Under the pieces are notes generated by a model. The model worked only from the letters and a program-made list of their open reading frames with translations, was not told where the DNA came from and searched no databases. Shown piece after piece: positions 1 through 58,755 of a stretch of DNA of 64,000 bases. The stretch's first letter is position 1; each line of letters opens with the position of its first letter. The translations under genes were made by a program, and so were the position numbers. Location: assembly GCA_003576845.1 (NCBI GenBank), contig QEVJ01000035.1, positions 1 through 64,000 on the forward strand, in the 5' to 3' direction. The DNA comes from Planctomycetota bacterium (GTDB lineage: Bacteria > Planctomycetota > Planctomycetia > Pirellulales > PLA5).

Positions 1-447
1 ATGGTCAAAGACCCGGCGAAGGTGAACTTCAGTTATGGCGACAATCTGTGGCGCGGGTCGGACCTGCTTTGCTCCGGCGTGGCGAGCTTTGGGCACATTT
101 CGGGCGTGCACTACCAGAATCTCGACCAGTGGGGCGACTACATCGCGGCGCTCGATCGGGGCGAGTTGCCGCTGTTGCGCGGACTCGTGCCGACGCCGCA
201 CCAGCGCCTGGTGCGCGAGATGATTTTGCAAATGAAGAAGGGCCTGCTCGACGTGGGCTACTTCCGCGACAAGTTCGGCGTCGACATCATCGAGCACTGG
301 GCGGACGAATGGCGGCAGTATGCCGACGACGAGTACCTGTCGTTCGACGCAAATGAGGTGCGGCTTACGCGCGCCGGACTCTTGCGCGTCGATGGCCTGT
401 TGCCGGCGTTCTTCGAGCCGGAGCATCGGGGCGTGCGGTACACGTAG
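1..447 (+). CDS. C-terminal part of a HemN/HemW-like coproporphyrinogen III oxidase family protein (5' truncated)
   Basis: The reading frame is open from the first base. It resembles the C-terminal half of the oxygen-independent coproporphyrinogen oxidase family, with a segment like 'GVHYQNLDQWGDYIAALDRG' and a following winged-helix-like part ending in a 'RLTRAGLLRVDGLLPAFF' motif (HemN C-terminal domain). The family's radical SAM CxxxCxxC motif and barrel lie upstream of the window, so the ATG at base 1 is probably an internal methionine. Full-length members are roughly 400-460 residues and only 148 are present. Members act in heme biosynthesis or in heme insertion; the present part cannot decide which. 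The GcvH-like gene follows on the same strand after a repeat-bearing gap. Confidence 0.75.
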   Translation: MVKDPAKVNFSYGDNLWRGSDLLCSGVASFGHISGVHYQNLDQWGDYIAALDRGELPLLRGLVPTPHQRLVREMILQMKKGLLDVGYFRDKFGVDIIEHWADEWRQYADDEYLSFDANEVRLTRAGLLRVDGLLPAFFEPEHRGVRYT

Positions 448-448
448 C

Positions 449-590
449 ATCCGGGGTCGGGATCCGGGGGTCGGGGGTCAGGCACGAGCAGTTCGGAGCG
501 GTTTTGCGGCGAGTTGGCGAATGGCGAGAGCGCAACCATCCACAGAAGGCGTTTCTCCGTCTTCCCCTGACCCCCGATCCCTGACCGCCG
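449..590. repeat. Inverted pair of GAATCCC/CCCGACC-family repeats in the gap before the GcvH-like gene
   Basis: Positions 449-482 read as runs of GGGGTCGG and GGGGTCAGG. Positions 561-590 carry the opposite-strand version, with CCCCTGACCCCCGATCC. The two arms can pair across a loop of about 80 nt. The same motif family recurs at 701-772, 42003-42030, 42479-42528 and 58682-58755. Confidence 0.75.
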
Positions 591-610
591 AAGTCTGTCT
601 GACGTTCGCA

Positions 611-1123
611 ATGGGCAAGTACGAAGCCCGCATTCCGACGGACCGGCTATACGCCAGAAATCACATGTGGGCACAACGGCGCGAAGCCGGTCCATGCTCG
701 CATTCCCCGAATCCCGAATCCCAAATCCCGAATCCTTCCCCGACCCCCGACCCCCGTCCCCTGACCCCTGCCTTCCGCTTCGGCTTCTCCGCTTACGCCG
801 TCCGTTTGCTGCAAGACGTCTATTTTCTCGACTGGCATCTGTCCGCCCCGGCGGTGCTCGTCGAGAAGCAGGAAATCGGGGAGATCGAGAGCAGCAAGGC
901 CGAAAGCGCGCTCTACGCCCCCATGCCGGGCACGTTGACGCAGATCAACGCCGACTTGCTGGCCGATCCTTCCACGATTAACGTGGACAACTACGGGCGC
1001 GGGTGGCTGTTCGAGATGGAAGGCGATGGAGCGGGATTGCTGTCGCCGGACGAGTACCTGGTTCACCTCGAAGCCGCGTGGAAACTGGCGGAGCGGACGA
1101 TCAAGGGGCAGATGAACGAGTGA
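611..1123 (+). CDS. GcvH-like lipoyl-carrier protein with a repeat-encoded loop insert
   Basis: The 170-residue product has the GcvH fold signature: 'RNHMWAQ' (residues 16-22), 'FGFSAYAVRLLQDVYFLDW' (57-75), and the lipoylation site 'EIESSKAESALYAPMPG' with Lys96. In GcvH this lysine carries lipoate that shuttles the aminomethyl group in glycine cleavage; planctomycetes also have stand-alone GcvH-like proteins of unknown partner. Between the first conserved strand and 'FRFGFSAY' lies a Pro/Ser/Asn-rich stretch (about residues 23-54, including 'NPESQIPNPSPTPDPRP') that normal GcvH lacks. It is translated from the dispersed repeat at 701-772. I chose the ATG at 611 because the family start 'MGKYEARIPTDRLYARNH' follows it directly; the frame is open further upstream but only through repeat-like sequence. 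No P or T protein gene is nearby. Confidence 0.85.
   Translation: MGKYEARIPTDRLYARNHMWAQRREAGPCSHSPNPESQIPNPSPTPDPRPLTPAFRFGFSAYAVRLLQDVYFLDWHLSAPAVLVEKQEIGEIESSKAESALYAPMPGTLTQINADLLADPSTINVDNYGRGWLFEMEGDGAGLLSPDEYLVHLEAAWKLAERTIKGQMNE
701..772 (+). repeat. GAATCCC/CCCGACC dispersed repeat inside the GcvH-like coding region
   Basis: The first part carries CCGAATCCCGAATCCC with a variant AAATCCCGAATCC. The second part carries CCCCGACCCCCGACCCC and CCCCTGACCCCTG. The order (GAATCCC block, then CCCGACC block) is the same as at 58682-58755. The element stays in frame and encodes the loop insert. Confidence 0.85.
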
Positions 1124-1149
1124 TTCGAGCAATTGCTGAATGTTAATTG

Positions 1150-1398
1150 ATGAGCGAGGCGACCGTCATGTCGACAATCATCCCAGATACATCCGTGCAA
1201 GTGACCTTGCCGATTACGGTTTCGCAAGGTGTCGCGACGGAGATCGAGCGCGAAGCCGCTTCCTATGGACTTAATGTGTCGGCCTATCTCGTCCTGTTGC
1301 ACGCGATCTCGTCGGGACAAGTCCCGAAATCGTTTGGCGATAACATCAAGGAGATTTTTACGAAAGACCGCCGCATCCTCGAGGAACTGGCGAAGTGA
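1150..1398 (+). CDS. Putative antitoxin of a Doc-type toxin-antitoxin pair
   Basis: This 82-residue protein ends 21 nt before the Doc-like toxin, in the same frame. The segment 'SVQVTLPITVSQGVATEIEREAASYGLNVSAYLVLL' suggests a beta strand followed by two helices, as in ribbon-helix-helix DNA-binding antitoxins; I do not see a clear Phd/YefM fold. Position and size support the role of neutralising the toxin and repressing the operon. The start is uncertain: TTG 1147, ATG 1150 and ATG 1168 are all in frame. Naming it an antitoxin is inferred mostly from context. Confidence 0.6.
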   Translation: MSEATVMSTIIPDTSVQVTLPITVSQGVATEIEREAASYGLNVSAYLVLLHAISSGQVPKSFGDNIKEIFTKDRRILEELAK

Positions 1399-1419
1399 AC
1401 GCCGAGAATCCTCCGGTTC

Positions 1420-1800
1420 GTGACGCTCGCCGAGGTGTTATTTGCACATCGCCTGGCGATCATGCGGTATGGCGGCGTGGAAGGGCTGCGGGACTCGCGC
1501 CTCTTGGAGTCGGCAATGGCACAACCACAGGCAACGTTCGGCTGCGCTTTCCTGCACTCGACGATTGCCGAAATGGCCGGAGCGTATGCATACCATATTG
1601 CGAAGAATCATCCCTTTGTCGATGGGAACAAGCGCACGGCGTGGGCAACGATGCGCAACTTTCTACTGCACCAGGGATGGACTATTGACGTAGTCGACGA
1701 GGATGCCGTTGCGGTGATGAACGCCGTTTGCGAAGGAACCATTGATAAGCGCGAGTTGGCGAACTGGATTTCCGACCGAATGGTTTCGGCTGAAAAATAG
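1420..1800 (+). CDS. doc: Doc/Fic-family toxin (death-on-curing type)
   Basis: The 126-residue protein carries the Fic-fold motif 'HPFVDGNKRTA' (consensus HxFx[DE][AG]NKRTA of Doc) and the Doc-family N-terminus 'VLFAHRLAIMRYGGVEGLRDSRLLESA'. Doc proteins phosphorylate elongation factor Tu and block translation. The start is GTG 1420; no ATG occurs in frame near the 5' end, and 'RFVTLAEVL' fits the family N-terminus. It sits directly after the small antitoxin gene, the usual order for phd-doc. A HemN/GcvH-like pair and a ferredoxin-like gene flank it, and no other mobile genes are present, so it is probably a chromosomal module. Confidence 0.85.
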   Translation: MTLAEVLFAHRLAIMRYGGVEGLRDSRLLESAMAQPQATFGCAFLHSTIAEMAGAYAYHIAKNHPFVDGNKRTAWATMRNFLLHQGWTIDVVDEDAVAVMNAVCEGTIDKRELANWISDRMVSAEK

Positions 1801-1847
1801 GCCGTTGCGGCGTCCTCACCAAGGTTTAGTGCAATCGAGAGTACCGT

Positions 1848-2969
1848 ATGGCAAAGCGCATCACCGTCGTCGTCTCGCAGGGCCAAAGCCTGAATCCCGC
1901 CAAACGGAAGCTCGAGGAAGACCTCGTTGCGGCGCTGGTGATGCAGGGCGGGGTCGACGTGACCGTCGTGCCACATTTGTACGACCTTGCGCCCGACGGC
2001 ACCGGCATGTTGTGCCTGCAAGGCATCGCCGGCGACATGATCGTTTTGTCGTGGCTGTACCCGCGGGCTGCCCGGTGGACTCTCGACCGCAACGGAATCC
2101 ACGGGCAAGAGGGCCAGACGCTGCTCAAGGCGGCCGGCGAAGATGACGAGGACGATGAGGGCGACGAAGCGGACGCGACCGGCGACGATATGAGCGAAGC
2201 GAAGGGGCGGGTGATCGATCGCCGCGACATGCCCAGGCGGAAGATATATTGCCTCGACCTGCGGACGCACGCGGTCATCGATCCCTATCTTGCCGAAATT
2301 CGCCGGATTGCCGACGAGACGACGACGCAAACGGTCGACTTGCTCGGCTGGATCGGCGGCGCGCCCAAGAGCGAGCAGTTGGAGCGGTACCTCGATCCGA
2401 GCGGCAAGCATCACGCCGCGGCTCCGAGCGACGCGGCATTCCCCGGCCCGGTGAAGCTTTCATCGACGGCCGGCGCAGAGGAGACTACCGTCGCTACCGG
2501 CCCGACGATCGTGGCCGAAGAGCCGGCCCGCCGTTGGTATCCGGTAATCGACTACAGCCGTTGCACGAACTGCATGGAGTGCATCGACTTCTGCCTGTTC
2601 GGGGTGTACGGCCTCGACAGGGCGGACACGATCCTGGTCGAGCAGCCGGACAATTGCCGCAAGGGCTGTCCTGCGTGCAGCCGCGTTTGCCCGGAGAACG
2701 CGATAATCTTCCCGCAGCACAAGACGCCGGCCATCGCGGGCAGCGCGGAAGCGGTCGGCGGGATCAAGATCGACTTGTCGCTGCTGTTTGGCGGTGGATC
2801 GGGCCAGGACGCGTTGGCGACGGCCGTGAGCGAACGCGACGAGCAACTACTGCTAGCAGGCCGCGAGACCGTGGGCACAACTGTCGGCATCCCCAAACGC
2901 CAGGAAGGCAAACCGCAGCAGCCCAAGGACGACCTGGACAAGCTGATCGACGCGCTGGACGATTTTTGA
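1848..2969 (+). CDS. Ferredoxin-like protein with two [4Fe-4S] motifs and an acidic insert
   Basis: The 373-residue protein has eight cysteines in two clusters, C239-C242-C245-C249 and C270-C274-C277-C281, the second followed by a proline, as in bacterial 2[4Fe-4S] ferredoxin domains. The N-terminal 190 residues are not recognised. They include a run of Asp/Glu at about 98-114 that looks like a flexible acidic insert. The C-terminus is charged and ends 'PKDDLDKLIDALDDF'. There is no signal peptide, so it is probably a cytoplasmic electron-transfer protein. Its partner is unknown; it lies downstream of the HemN-like/GcvH-like pair, but the toxin-antitoxin genes come between. The ATG at 1848 is the natural start ('MAKRITVVVSQG'). 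Confidence 0.75.
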   Translation: MAKRITVVVSQGQSLNPAKRKLEEDLVAALVMQGGVDVTVVPHLYDLAPDGTGMLCLQGIAGDMIVLSWLYPRAARWTLDRNGIHGQEGQTLLKAAGEDDEDDEGDEADATGDDMSEAKGRVIDRRDMPRRKIYCLDLRTHAVIDPYLAEIRRIADETTTQTVDLLGWIGGAPKSEQLERYLDPSGKHHAAAPSDAAFPGPVKLSSTAGAEETTVATGPTIVAEEPARRWYPVIDYSRCTNCMECIDFCLFGVYGLDRADTILVEQPDNCRKGCPACSRVCPENAIIFPQHKTPAIAGSAEAVGGIKIDLSLLFGGGSGQDALATAVSERDEQLLLAGRETVGTTVGIPKRQEGKPQQPKDDLDKLIDALDDF

Positions 2970-40472: not shown

Positions 40473-40509
40473 AATTGAGGATTGAGGATCGAGGCGGGAG
40501 GTTAGAACC

Positions 40510-41739: not shown

Positions 41740-42002
41740 CGTGACGAGCACGCCAAGGTGGCGGGGAATAAGGCGCTCAATGCCGACACGCTCTTGGTCG
41801 ACGGTCGTCGCTGGCGGAAGCGGAGCGAGTATCGGTAAGCCCACTTGGGGCAACCTTTGTGCCACGCTGCCGCTCCCGCGCGACGGGCCGAAAACCGGTT
41901 GAATTCCGCTGAAGGCGGCAGTATCGCGAATCCGCGACGTTGCGAAATGGCAACGCGGCAGGCCATTAGGCGAGGCGATTCGGCAACATCGCGCGTTTCC
42001 CT

Positions 42003-42030
42003 GAATCCCGAATCCCGAATCCCGAATCCC
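42003..42030 (+). repeat. Four GAATCCC tandem units next to the 42032-42478 gene
   Basis: Four exact GAATCCC units in a row, directly beside the TAG stop codon (minus strand, bases 42032-42034) of the neighbouring gene. It is part of the dispersed repeat family also at 701-772, 42479-42528 and 58682-58755. Confidence 0.9.
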
Positions 42031-42031
42031 G

Positions 42032-42478
42032 CTATCCAATCTCGCGCAAAAAGCTCGCCAACATGGCGTCGAACACGGCTTTGATTTCGGCCAGTTCGCG
42101 ATCTTCGGATTGATAGTACACGACGTAAGTCGCCCGCGGCGTGTGGAGCGCGCGGACGGACGCGGTATTGGTGAGGTCGAGATAGATGAAGTTCATGTCG
42201 TAGCCGACGAGGTCCTGGCCTTCGACGGCTTCGGTCACTGTGGCCACGTCCATATCCTGATACTCGCCGCGGAGCGCGCGCATGACTTCGGCGGCCAGAT
42301 CGGTCGGTGTTTGGTTTGGCGGATAGATCGCCAGCGACCAGAACGCGCCGCCGGGACTGTAAATCGAGACGCTGTTTTGCTTCTCGTCGGGGCCGGCTTC
42401 GTCGTCCGTGCCGTCGTCGAGCGTCCAGTTCTCTGGATACAGGAAGCGGACGCCGAGAGAGTCGTAAACGGCGGGCAT
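42032..42478 (-). CDS. Conserved hypothetical protein flanked by dispersed repeats
   Basis: The 148-residue protein 'MPAVYDSLGVRFLYPENWTLDDG' starts like proteins that describe a 'YPENW' motif, common in small PsbP/DUF1795-like domains. It is alpha/beta, with 'GGAFWSLAIYPP' and 'VGYDMNFIYLDLTN'. There is no signal peptide. The stop touches the GAATCCC array and the start is next to another copy of the same repeat family on the opposite side. Its function is unknown. Confidence 0.65.
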   Translation of the reverse strand: MPAVYDSLGVRFLYPENWTLDDGTDDEAGPDEKQNSVSIYSPGGAFWSLAIYPPNQTPTDLAAEVMRALRGEYQDMDVATVTEAVEGQDLVGYDMNFIYLDLTNTASVRALHTPRATYVVYYQSEDRELAEIKAVFDAMLASFLREIG

Positions 42479-42528
42479 GGATCAGGGGTCGGGGATCGGG
42501 GGTCAGGGGTCGGGAGGGGATTCGGGAA
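42479..42528 (-). repeat. GAATCCC/CCCGACC dispersed repeat directly before the start codon
   Basis: On the minus strand this reads CCCGAATCCCCTCCCGACC, then CCTGACCCCCGATCCCC and CGACCCCTGATCC, ending at ATG 42478. The order is the same as at 701-772 and 58682-58755. Confidence 0.8.
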
Positions 42529-58681: not shown

Positions 58682-58755
58682 TGAATCCCCGAATGCCGAA
58701 TCCCGAATCCCGACGTCCGCATTCCCCGACCCCCGACCCCCGACCAACGATCCCC
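58682..58755 (+). repeat. GAATCCC/CCCGACC dispersed repeat supplying the RuvX N-terminus
   Basis: It reads GAATCCCCGAATGCCGAATC, then GACCCCCGACCCCCGACC, in the same order as 701-772. It contains the possible start codons GTG 58681 and ATG 58693. Confidence 0.85.

Follow-up and report, generated by a model that had tools for sequence, protein, structure and literature searches.

Arrays of tandem seven-base units stand at common positions in two planctomycete species of one genus, and comparison of the two sequences shows that the units written at these positions mostly differ between the species. The arrays are real and akin to known heptamer repeats, and their most interesting trait is that addresses are kept while units are replaced. 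We consider it likely that array positions are inherited while their content is replaced by lineage-specific units, the arrays forming a genome-wide family whose coding members survive in tolerant loops. The comparison involves the genome under study (G000) and its only available congener (G001), both of them draft assemblies. The window, a stretch of 64 000 nucleotides from G000, contains the array that drew attention to the family, located in a gene for a GcvH-like lipoyl-carrier protein (Table 1).

Table 1. Arrays and host gene located in the 64 000-nucleotide window of G000
Position	Strand	Feature	Basis
454..476	-	G-rich arm (C-rich on the minus strand) of an inverted array pair, directly past the stop of the hemN-like ORF	Pairs with 565-586 in predicted RNA fold
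565..586	+	C-rich arm of the inverted pair 454-476/565-586, directly upstream of the gcvH-like start	Predicted RNA fold
611..1123	+	GcvH-like lipoyl-carrier gene, 170 aa, Lys96 kept	PF01597, Lys96 alignment, predicted H-protein fold
704..772	+	In-frame heptamer array; CCCGAAT block at about 704-735, then CCCCCGA/CCCCTGA block at about 737-772; translated SPNPESQIPNPSPTPDPRPLTP	Repeat scan; loop length against relatives
40474..40501	-	Heptamer array, CAATCCT/CGATCCT kind	Array scan
41997..42037	+	Heptamer array, CCCGAAT units	Array scan
42482..42526	-	Heptamer array, CCCGAAT then CCCCTGA/CCCCGAT units	Array scan
58685..58753	+	Composite heptamer array, CCCGAAT block then CCCCCGA block	Array scan

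The 170-aa product of the ORF at 611-1123 matches the GCV_H family of Pfam (PF01597; E 1.2e-14, 54.7 bits versus a gathering score of 22.2), and relatives align with it from residue 1, which confirms its start and frame. Lys96, the lipoylation lysine, is invariant across an alignment of 40 sequences, so that the first-pass annotation was right to describe a GcvH-like protein that keeps this residue. Against TIGR00527, the NCBIfam equivalog model of true GcvH, the protein scores 56.2 bits and does not reach the cut-off of 115.85, and we therefore use only the name GcvH-like. The fold and the lipoyl-lysine motif are common to this protein and to GcvH, the glycine cleavage H protein. Unlike GcvH, it falls below the equivalog cut-off and its gene adjoins hemN-like and ferredoxin-like genes.

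Within this gene, the array measures 69 bp and consists of (CCCGAAT)n, a short link, and CCCCCGA/CCCCTGA units. The loop between the NHMW and RFGF motifs is 35 aa long here and 29 aa in G001, whereas 49 of the 75 sequences measurable by the pattern have 8-9 aa, so that the excess over the usual length is about 27 aa. The repeat-derived insert of ‘about 30’ residues reported from the first reading of the DNA is thus present, and the heptamer insert is absent at this site from relatives outside the genus. That the frame is kept and the insert falls in a loop also agrees with our results: the ORF is open, and an AlphaFold model (mean pLDDT 87.8) places the insert between the strands at residues 19-23 and 54-59. 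Ten-residue means of pLDDT fall to 61-78 across residues 21-50, in contrast to values mostly above 90 in the rest of the protein, and the nearest PDB matches are GcvH structures such as 1onl and 3a7l. The model supports a low-confidence loop in an H-protein fold that is otherwise predicted to be intact, and the protein presumably still works with its insert. Other relatives lengthen the same loop too, with 20-26 aa and no heptamer pattern in four of them.

The array belongs to a family that extends throughout the genome. The 7.05-Mb genome contains 159 copies of CCCGAATCCCGAATCC, a 16-mer of the main unit (78 and 81 on the two strands), and 0 of its reversed control, an abundance far beyond chance. 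In the window, the repeat recurs as originally described, at 565-586, 41997-42037 and 58685-58753 on the plus strand and at 454-476 and 42486-42526 on the minus strand. While genome-wide totals are from pattern searches, array statistics are from about 0.45 Mb only, comprising the window and 20 further stretches that were mostly picked for CCCGAAT arrays, which biases densities. This sample yielded a list of 56 arrays, with unit families that include CCCGAAT, CCCC(C/T)GA, CCCCCAG, AACCTC(C/T), CAATCCT/CGATCCT, CCCCTCG and others. The reversed pattern is an unclean control for AACCTCY and CCCCCAG, as the reversed letters resemble related units. Across the order, CCCGAAT arrays are patchy, being found in 8 of 197 genomes surveyed for this unit.

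Neighboring arrays on opposite strands show a G-arm followed by a C-arm in 18 cases versus 1 in the reverse order, with both genomes pooled. The arms of the pair that precedes the gcvH-like gene in the window pair with each other in a predicted RNA fold (z -1.8). A matching inverted pair lies upstream of the gcvH-like gene in the congener, where both arms have other units and are also predicted to pair (z -4.4). Inspected by eye, composite arrays in G000 (for example window 704-772 and those of stretches L189 and L184) usually have the CCCGAAT block before CCCCCGA/CCCCTGA or CCCCCAG on the C-strand, and rarely the reverse. This polarity might mark the end where new units join.

Direct reading of the gcvH-like genes of G000 and G001 finds an array in frame in both, with CATCCCCCATCCCCCATCCCCCAGCCCCCAGCCCC at the same site in G001. 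At UvrA site 1, AANPESRIPNPSPTPDPRPLTPDLALSAH in G000 stands against AANPESPAPSPQPPTPDLALSAH in G001, and the MetG site has AACCTCC units in G000 and AAGCCTC units in G001. These vocabularies are specific to each genome: AACCTCY arrays have 305 matches in G000 and 0 in G001, and AAGCCTC arrays have 5 matches in G001 and 0 in G000. For a systematic comparison, we used as segments the divergent stretches inside 116 kb of aligned G000/G001 DNA, and called arrays at 17 out of 21 lag-7 matches in G000 and at 14 in G001. An array was found in G001 in 14 of 31 segments with a G000 array versus 4 of 234 segments without one (odds ratio 47, p 9e-12), and 12 of the 14 segments with arrays in both genomes have them in the same orientation. 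The remaining 17 of the 31 have no counterpart in G001. With the threshold of 17 applied to both genomes, the counts become 6/31 versus 2/234 (p 4e-5). A control using the gaps between alignments yielded just 8 gaps because gapped alignments ran through the arrays, and divergent segments were used instead. A random-window test agrees, with 18 of 30 sites at p < 0.05.

Of 16 shared addresses, two have an identical consensus unit and 14 have units that differ in 2-3 of the 7 bases, some of the G001 arrays being degenerate so that their consensus is rough. Orthologous arrays resemble each other scarcely more than arrays taken from unrelated addresses do (permutation p 0.07). Because an array is also present at this gcvH site in the congener, and replacement of units is frequent in the DNA compared, the gcvH array is probably older than the separation of the two species, with its present sequence written later. 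For the same reasons, the model of insertion by repeat movement or copying that the first-pass annotation put forward is incomplete: the insert is repeat-derived and absent outside the genus, but more is involved than one mobile copy entering one gene. The comparison with close relatives that it proposed finds the insert absent outside the genus and, in G001, an array of other units at the same site. Nor did we find the same insert in relatives with no repeat elsewhere, since the insert of the congener differs and its units recur in its own genome.

The search for repeat copies inside open frames, also proposed at the outset, shows that at least 15 of the 56 arrays are in frame inside genes, based on conserved protein sequence on both sides or on codon usage. 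In addition to the array in the GcvH-like protein, there are four in a 2453-aa double UvrA, one inside the tRNA-synt_1g domain of MetG, several with conserved flanks in two ketoacyl-synthase proteins, and one in an FG-GAP-like protein (named by eye) that was assigned by codon usage only. The unit CCCGAAT has no stop in any frame of either strand and, whatever the frame, encodes the heptapeptide PESRIPN from the C-strand and SGFGIRD from the G-strand, and some other units carry a stop, for example AACCTCT. One G001 protein, with DUF7133 and HEAT repeats, contains a whole inverted pair in frame (SGFGIQDSGF ... PNPKSRIPN). The segment of MetG that houses the array is 43 aa long in most genomes outside the genus, 61 and 59 aa in the two congeners, and 63-67 aa without heptamers in one family (f18). 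The UvrA linker in other genera has 45-90 non-heptameric residues, with at most 14 of 21 lag-7 matches versus 20-21 in the two congeners. Since these outgroup lengths vary without heptamers, the arrays occupy sites that tolerate insertions anyway. At about 2450 aa, the UvrA itself (L189:134-7492, G000:C199) is a fused double protein that has an additional part at its C-terminus, and open frames of similar length exist in most relatives searched. In another genus (L298, G032:C96), its linker contains the peptide SLASPRPNPLPEGEG, which looks like a different dispersed repeat in translation, and the linker may collect unrelated kinds of repeats.

Two shared sequences bear on how units reach their addresses. 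The two blocks of the gcvH array meet at a 17-mer junction, GAATCCTTCCCCGACCC, of which the genome has just two copies, one in this array and one in a UvrA array, and the 16-mer CCCCCAGCCCCCAGCC has 7 matches in G001, two of which are within the gcvH-like and UvrA genes. This sharing is suggestive of copying between loci but not proof of it, because the vocabulary of units is small. We infer the order of events and the copying mechanism as follows. An array would arise in, or be copied into, a tolerant loop or a gene border. Its address would persist over long periods, with the units there being overwritten by those dominant in the lineage. The gcvH array would have settled between strands 1 and 2 of the protein in an ancestor of the genus, tolerated since the loop there accepts extra residues. 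At the DNA level, the probable cause is template switching, slippage during replication or conversion, acting on arrays with G/C runs at distant loci and perhaps on the two paired arms of a single locus. Correction of one arm by the other in an inverted pair is weakly supported, with a permutation p of 0.04 in G000 and 0.25 in G001.

The shared addresses could instead have been produced by independent insertions, if mobile arrays with the locally dominant unit struck the same tolerant loops and gene borders, which could be insertion hot spots, separately in each species. Such a history would suit the differing units at 14 of 16 shared sites, the 17 of 31 arrays without a G001 counterpart, and the finding that coding array sites are tolerant loops that relatives lengthen with unrelated sequence. 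We nevertheless regard it as unlikely, given that very strong strand-biased hot spots would be needed to produce an odds ratio of 47 with matching orientation in 12 of 14 segments, and that 2 of the 16 sites retain an identical unit. Selection at the protein level, in which a Pro-rich flexible linker is useful and the heptamers are a product of local slippage within linkers, is more doubtful still. Arrays between genes consist of the same units on both strands, the G-strand is the sense strand of some coding arrays and gives SGFGIRD, nearly all relatives have a short GcvH loop, and lineage-specific units are common to unrelated loci. What such selection would explain is that coding arrays read as Pro-rich, disorder-like peptides, that all four UvrA arrays have the C-strand as sense, and that other genera have a long, variable UvrA linker with no heptamers in it.

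It is very improbable that the arrays spread by transposition as MITE-like or REP-like elements composed of a G-arm, a spacer and a C-arm, even though the prevailing order of the arms (18 versus 1) and the inverted pair in frame in a G001 gene would both be expected of such elements. Spacers range from 7 to 185 bp without a common core, and a conserved internal MITE sequence was not found in 14 spacers, which have no similarity beyond a 10-bp chance match. Moreover, many arrays are single, including the gcvH array, and units vary by site. An assembly or binning artefact has a negligible chance of accounting for the results: misassembly is a common risk with repeats and the two genomes are drafts, but the gcvH array with its 69 bp is below the usual read length, frames are open in many genes, and the gcvH site also has an array in a second assembly. 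Inherited positions with replaced content remain our preferred reading.

Heptamer repeats that form G-quadruplexes have been described in Xanthomonas (GGGAATC) and Nostoc (GGGGA(C/T)T), with one consensus unit per genome and under-representation on the coding strand of ORFs. Between two Xanthomonas species, 83% of the heptamer repeats are in the same gene context, with variation noted in length and sequence (PMC4692102). The arrays studied here are similar in having seven-base tandem units with G/C runs that are dispersed on both strands near gene ends, and in forming convergent pairs (18 versus 1 in G-then-C order). They differ in that several unit families coexist, that positions are kept between congeners while their units are replaced, and that core proteins contain in-frame arrays. 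Neither of the two published units is matched, as the main G-strand unit here is GGGATTC, accompanied by several other families. Rickettsia palindromic elements, about 150 bp in length, are found in frame in many unrelated genes and are translated with a conserved encoded peptide (reviewed in PMC10969869). Our arrays are likewise in frame in unrelated genes, but they have no conserved core or peptide; only the heptamer units are common, differing by site and species, and the spacers are unrelated. The TAACTGA direct repeats of Beggiatoaceae and cyanobacteria have one fixed unit with forward stops and are mostly intergenic, with related heptamers rarely repeated (PMC4679880). They are also dispersed heptamer direct repeats, the spreading mechanism of TAACTGA being unexplained, whereas the main unit CCCGAAT is stop-free in every frame.

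We found no description of heptamer arrays of this sort in planctomycetes in the literature searched, although absence is not proven thereby. Such arrays in bacteria have so far been described mainly as intergenic and without a known mechanism, whereas here positions are kept with exchanged units between sister species and some arrays are in frame in UvrA, MetG and a lipoyl carrier. If confirmed in more species, this would represent a repeat-copying process that rewrites loops of unrelated essential proteins together, and species pairs with the same address and different units offer a natural route to how arrays get copied. We are nearly evenly divided, leaning slightly to the skeptical side, on the broadest claim: that many fixed addresses, some in frame in essential proteins, are rewritten genome-wide by lineage-specific units in a bacterial parallel to the concerted evolution of satellites, with copying at the DNA level altering unrelated core proteins together.

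The surroundings of the gcvH-like gene add some further observations. Between it and the ferredoxin-like gene (window 1147-1800) are an 83-aa ORF in an antitoxin-like position, matched in the congener only, and an ORF for a Fic/Doc death-on-curing toxin (TIGR01550, PF02661) without a match in 80 loci. The order hemN-like, GcvH-like, ferredoxin-like (373 aa, with 4Fe-4S motifs) in window 1-2969 is widely kept in related planctomycetes. Among 80 planctomycete loci, some of which are too short to tell, 77 have a hemN-like part and 59 a ferredoxin-like gene no more than 3.5 kb from the gcvH-like gene. Judged from these sequence comparisons the neighborhood is old, and the kept gene order suggests a shared function for this GcvH-like protein.
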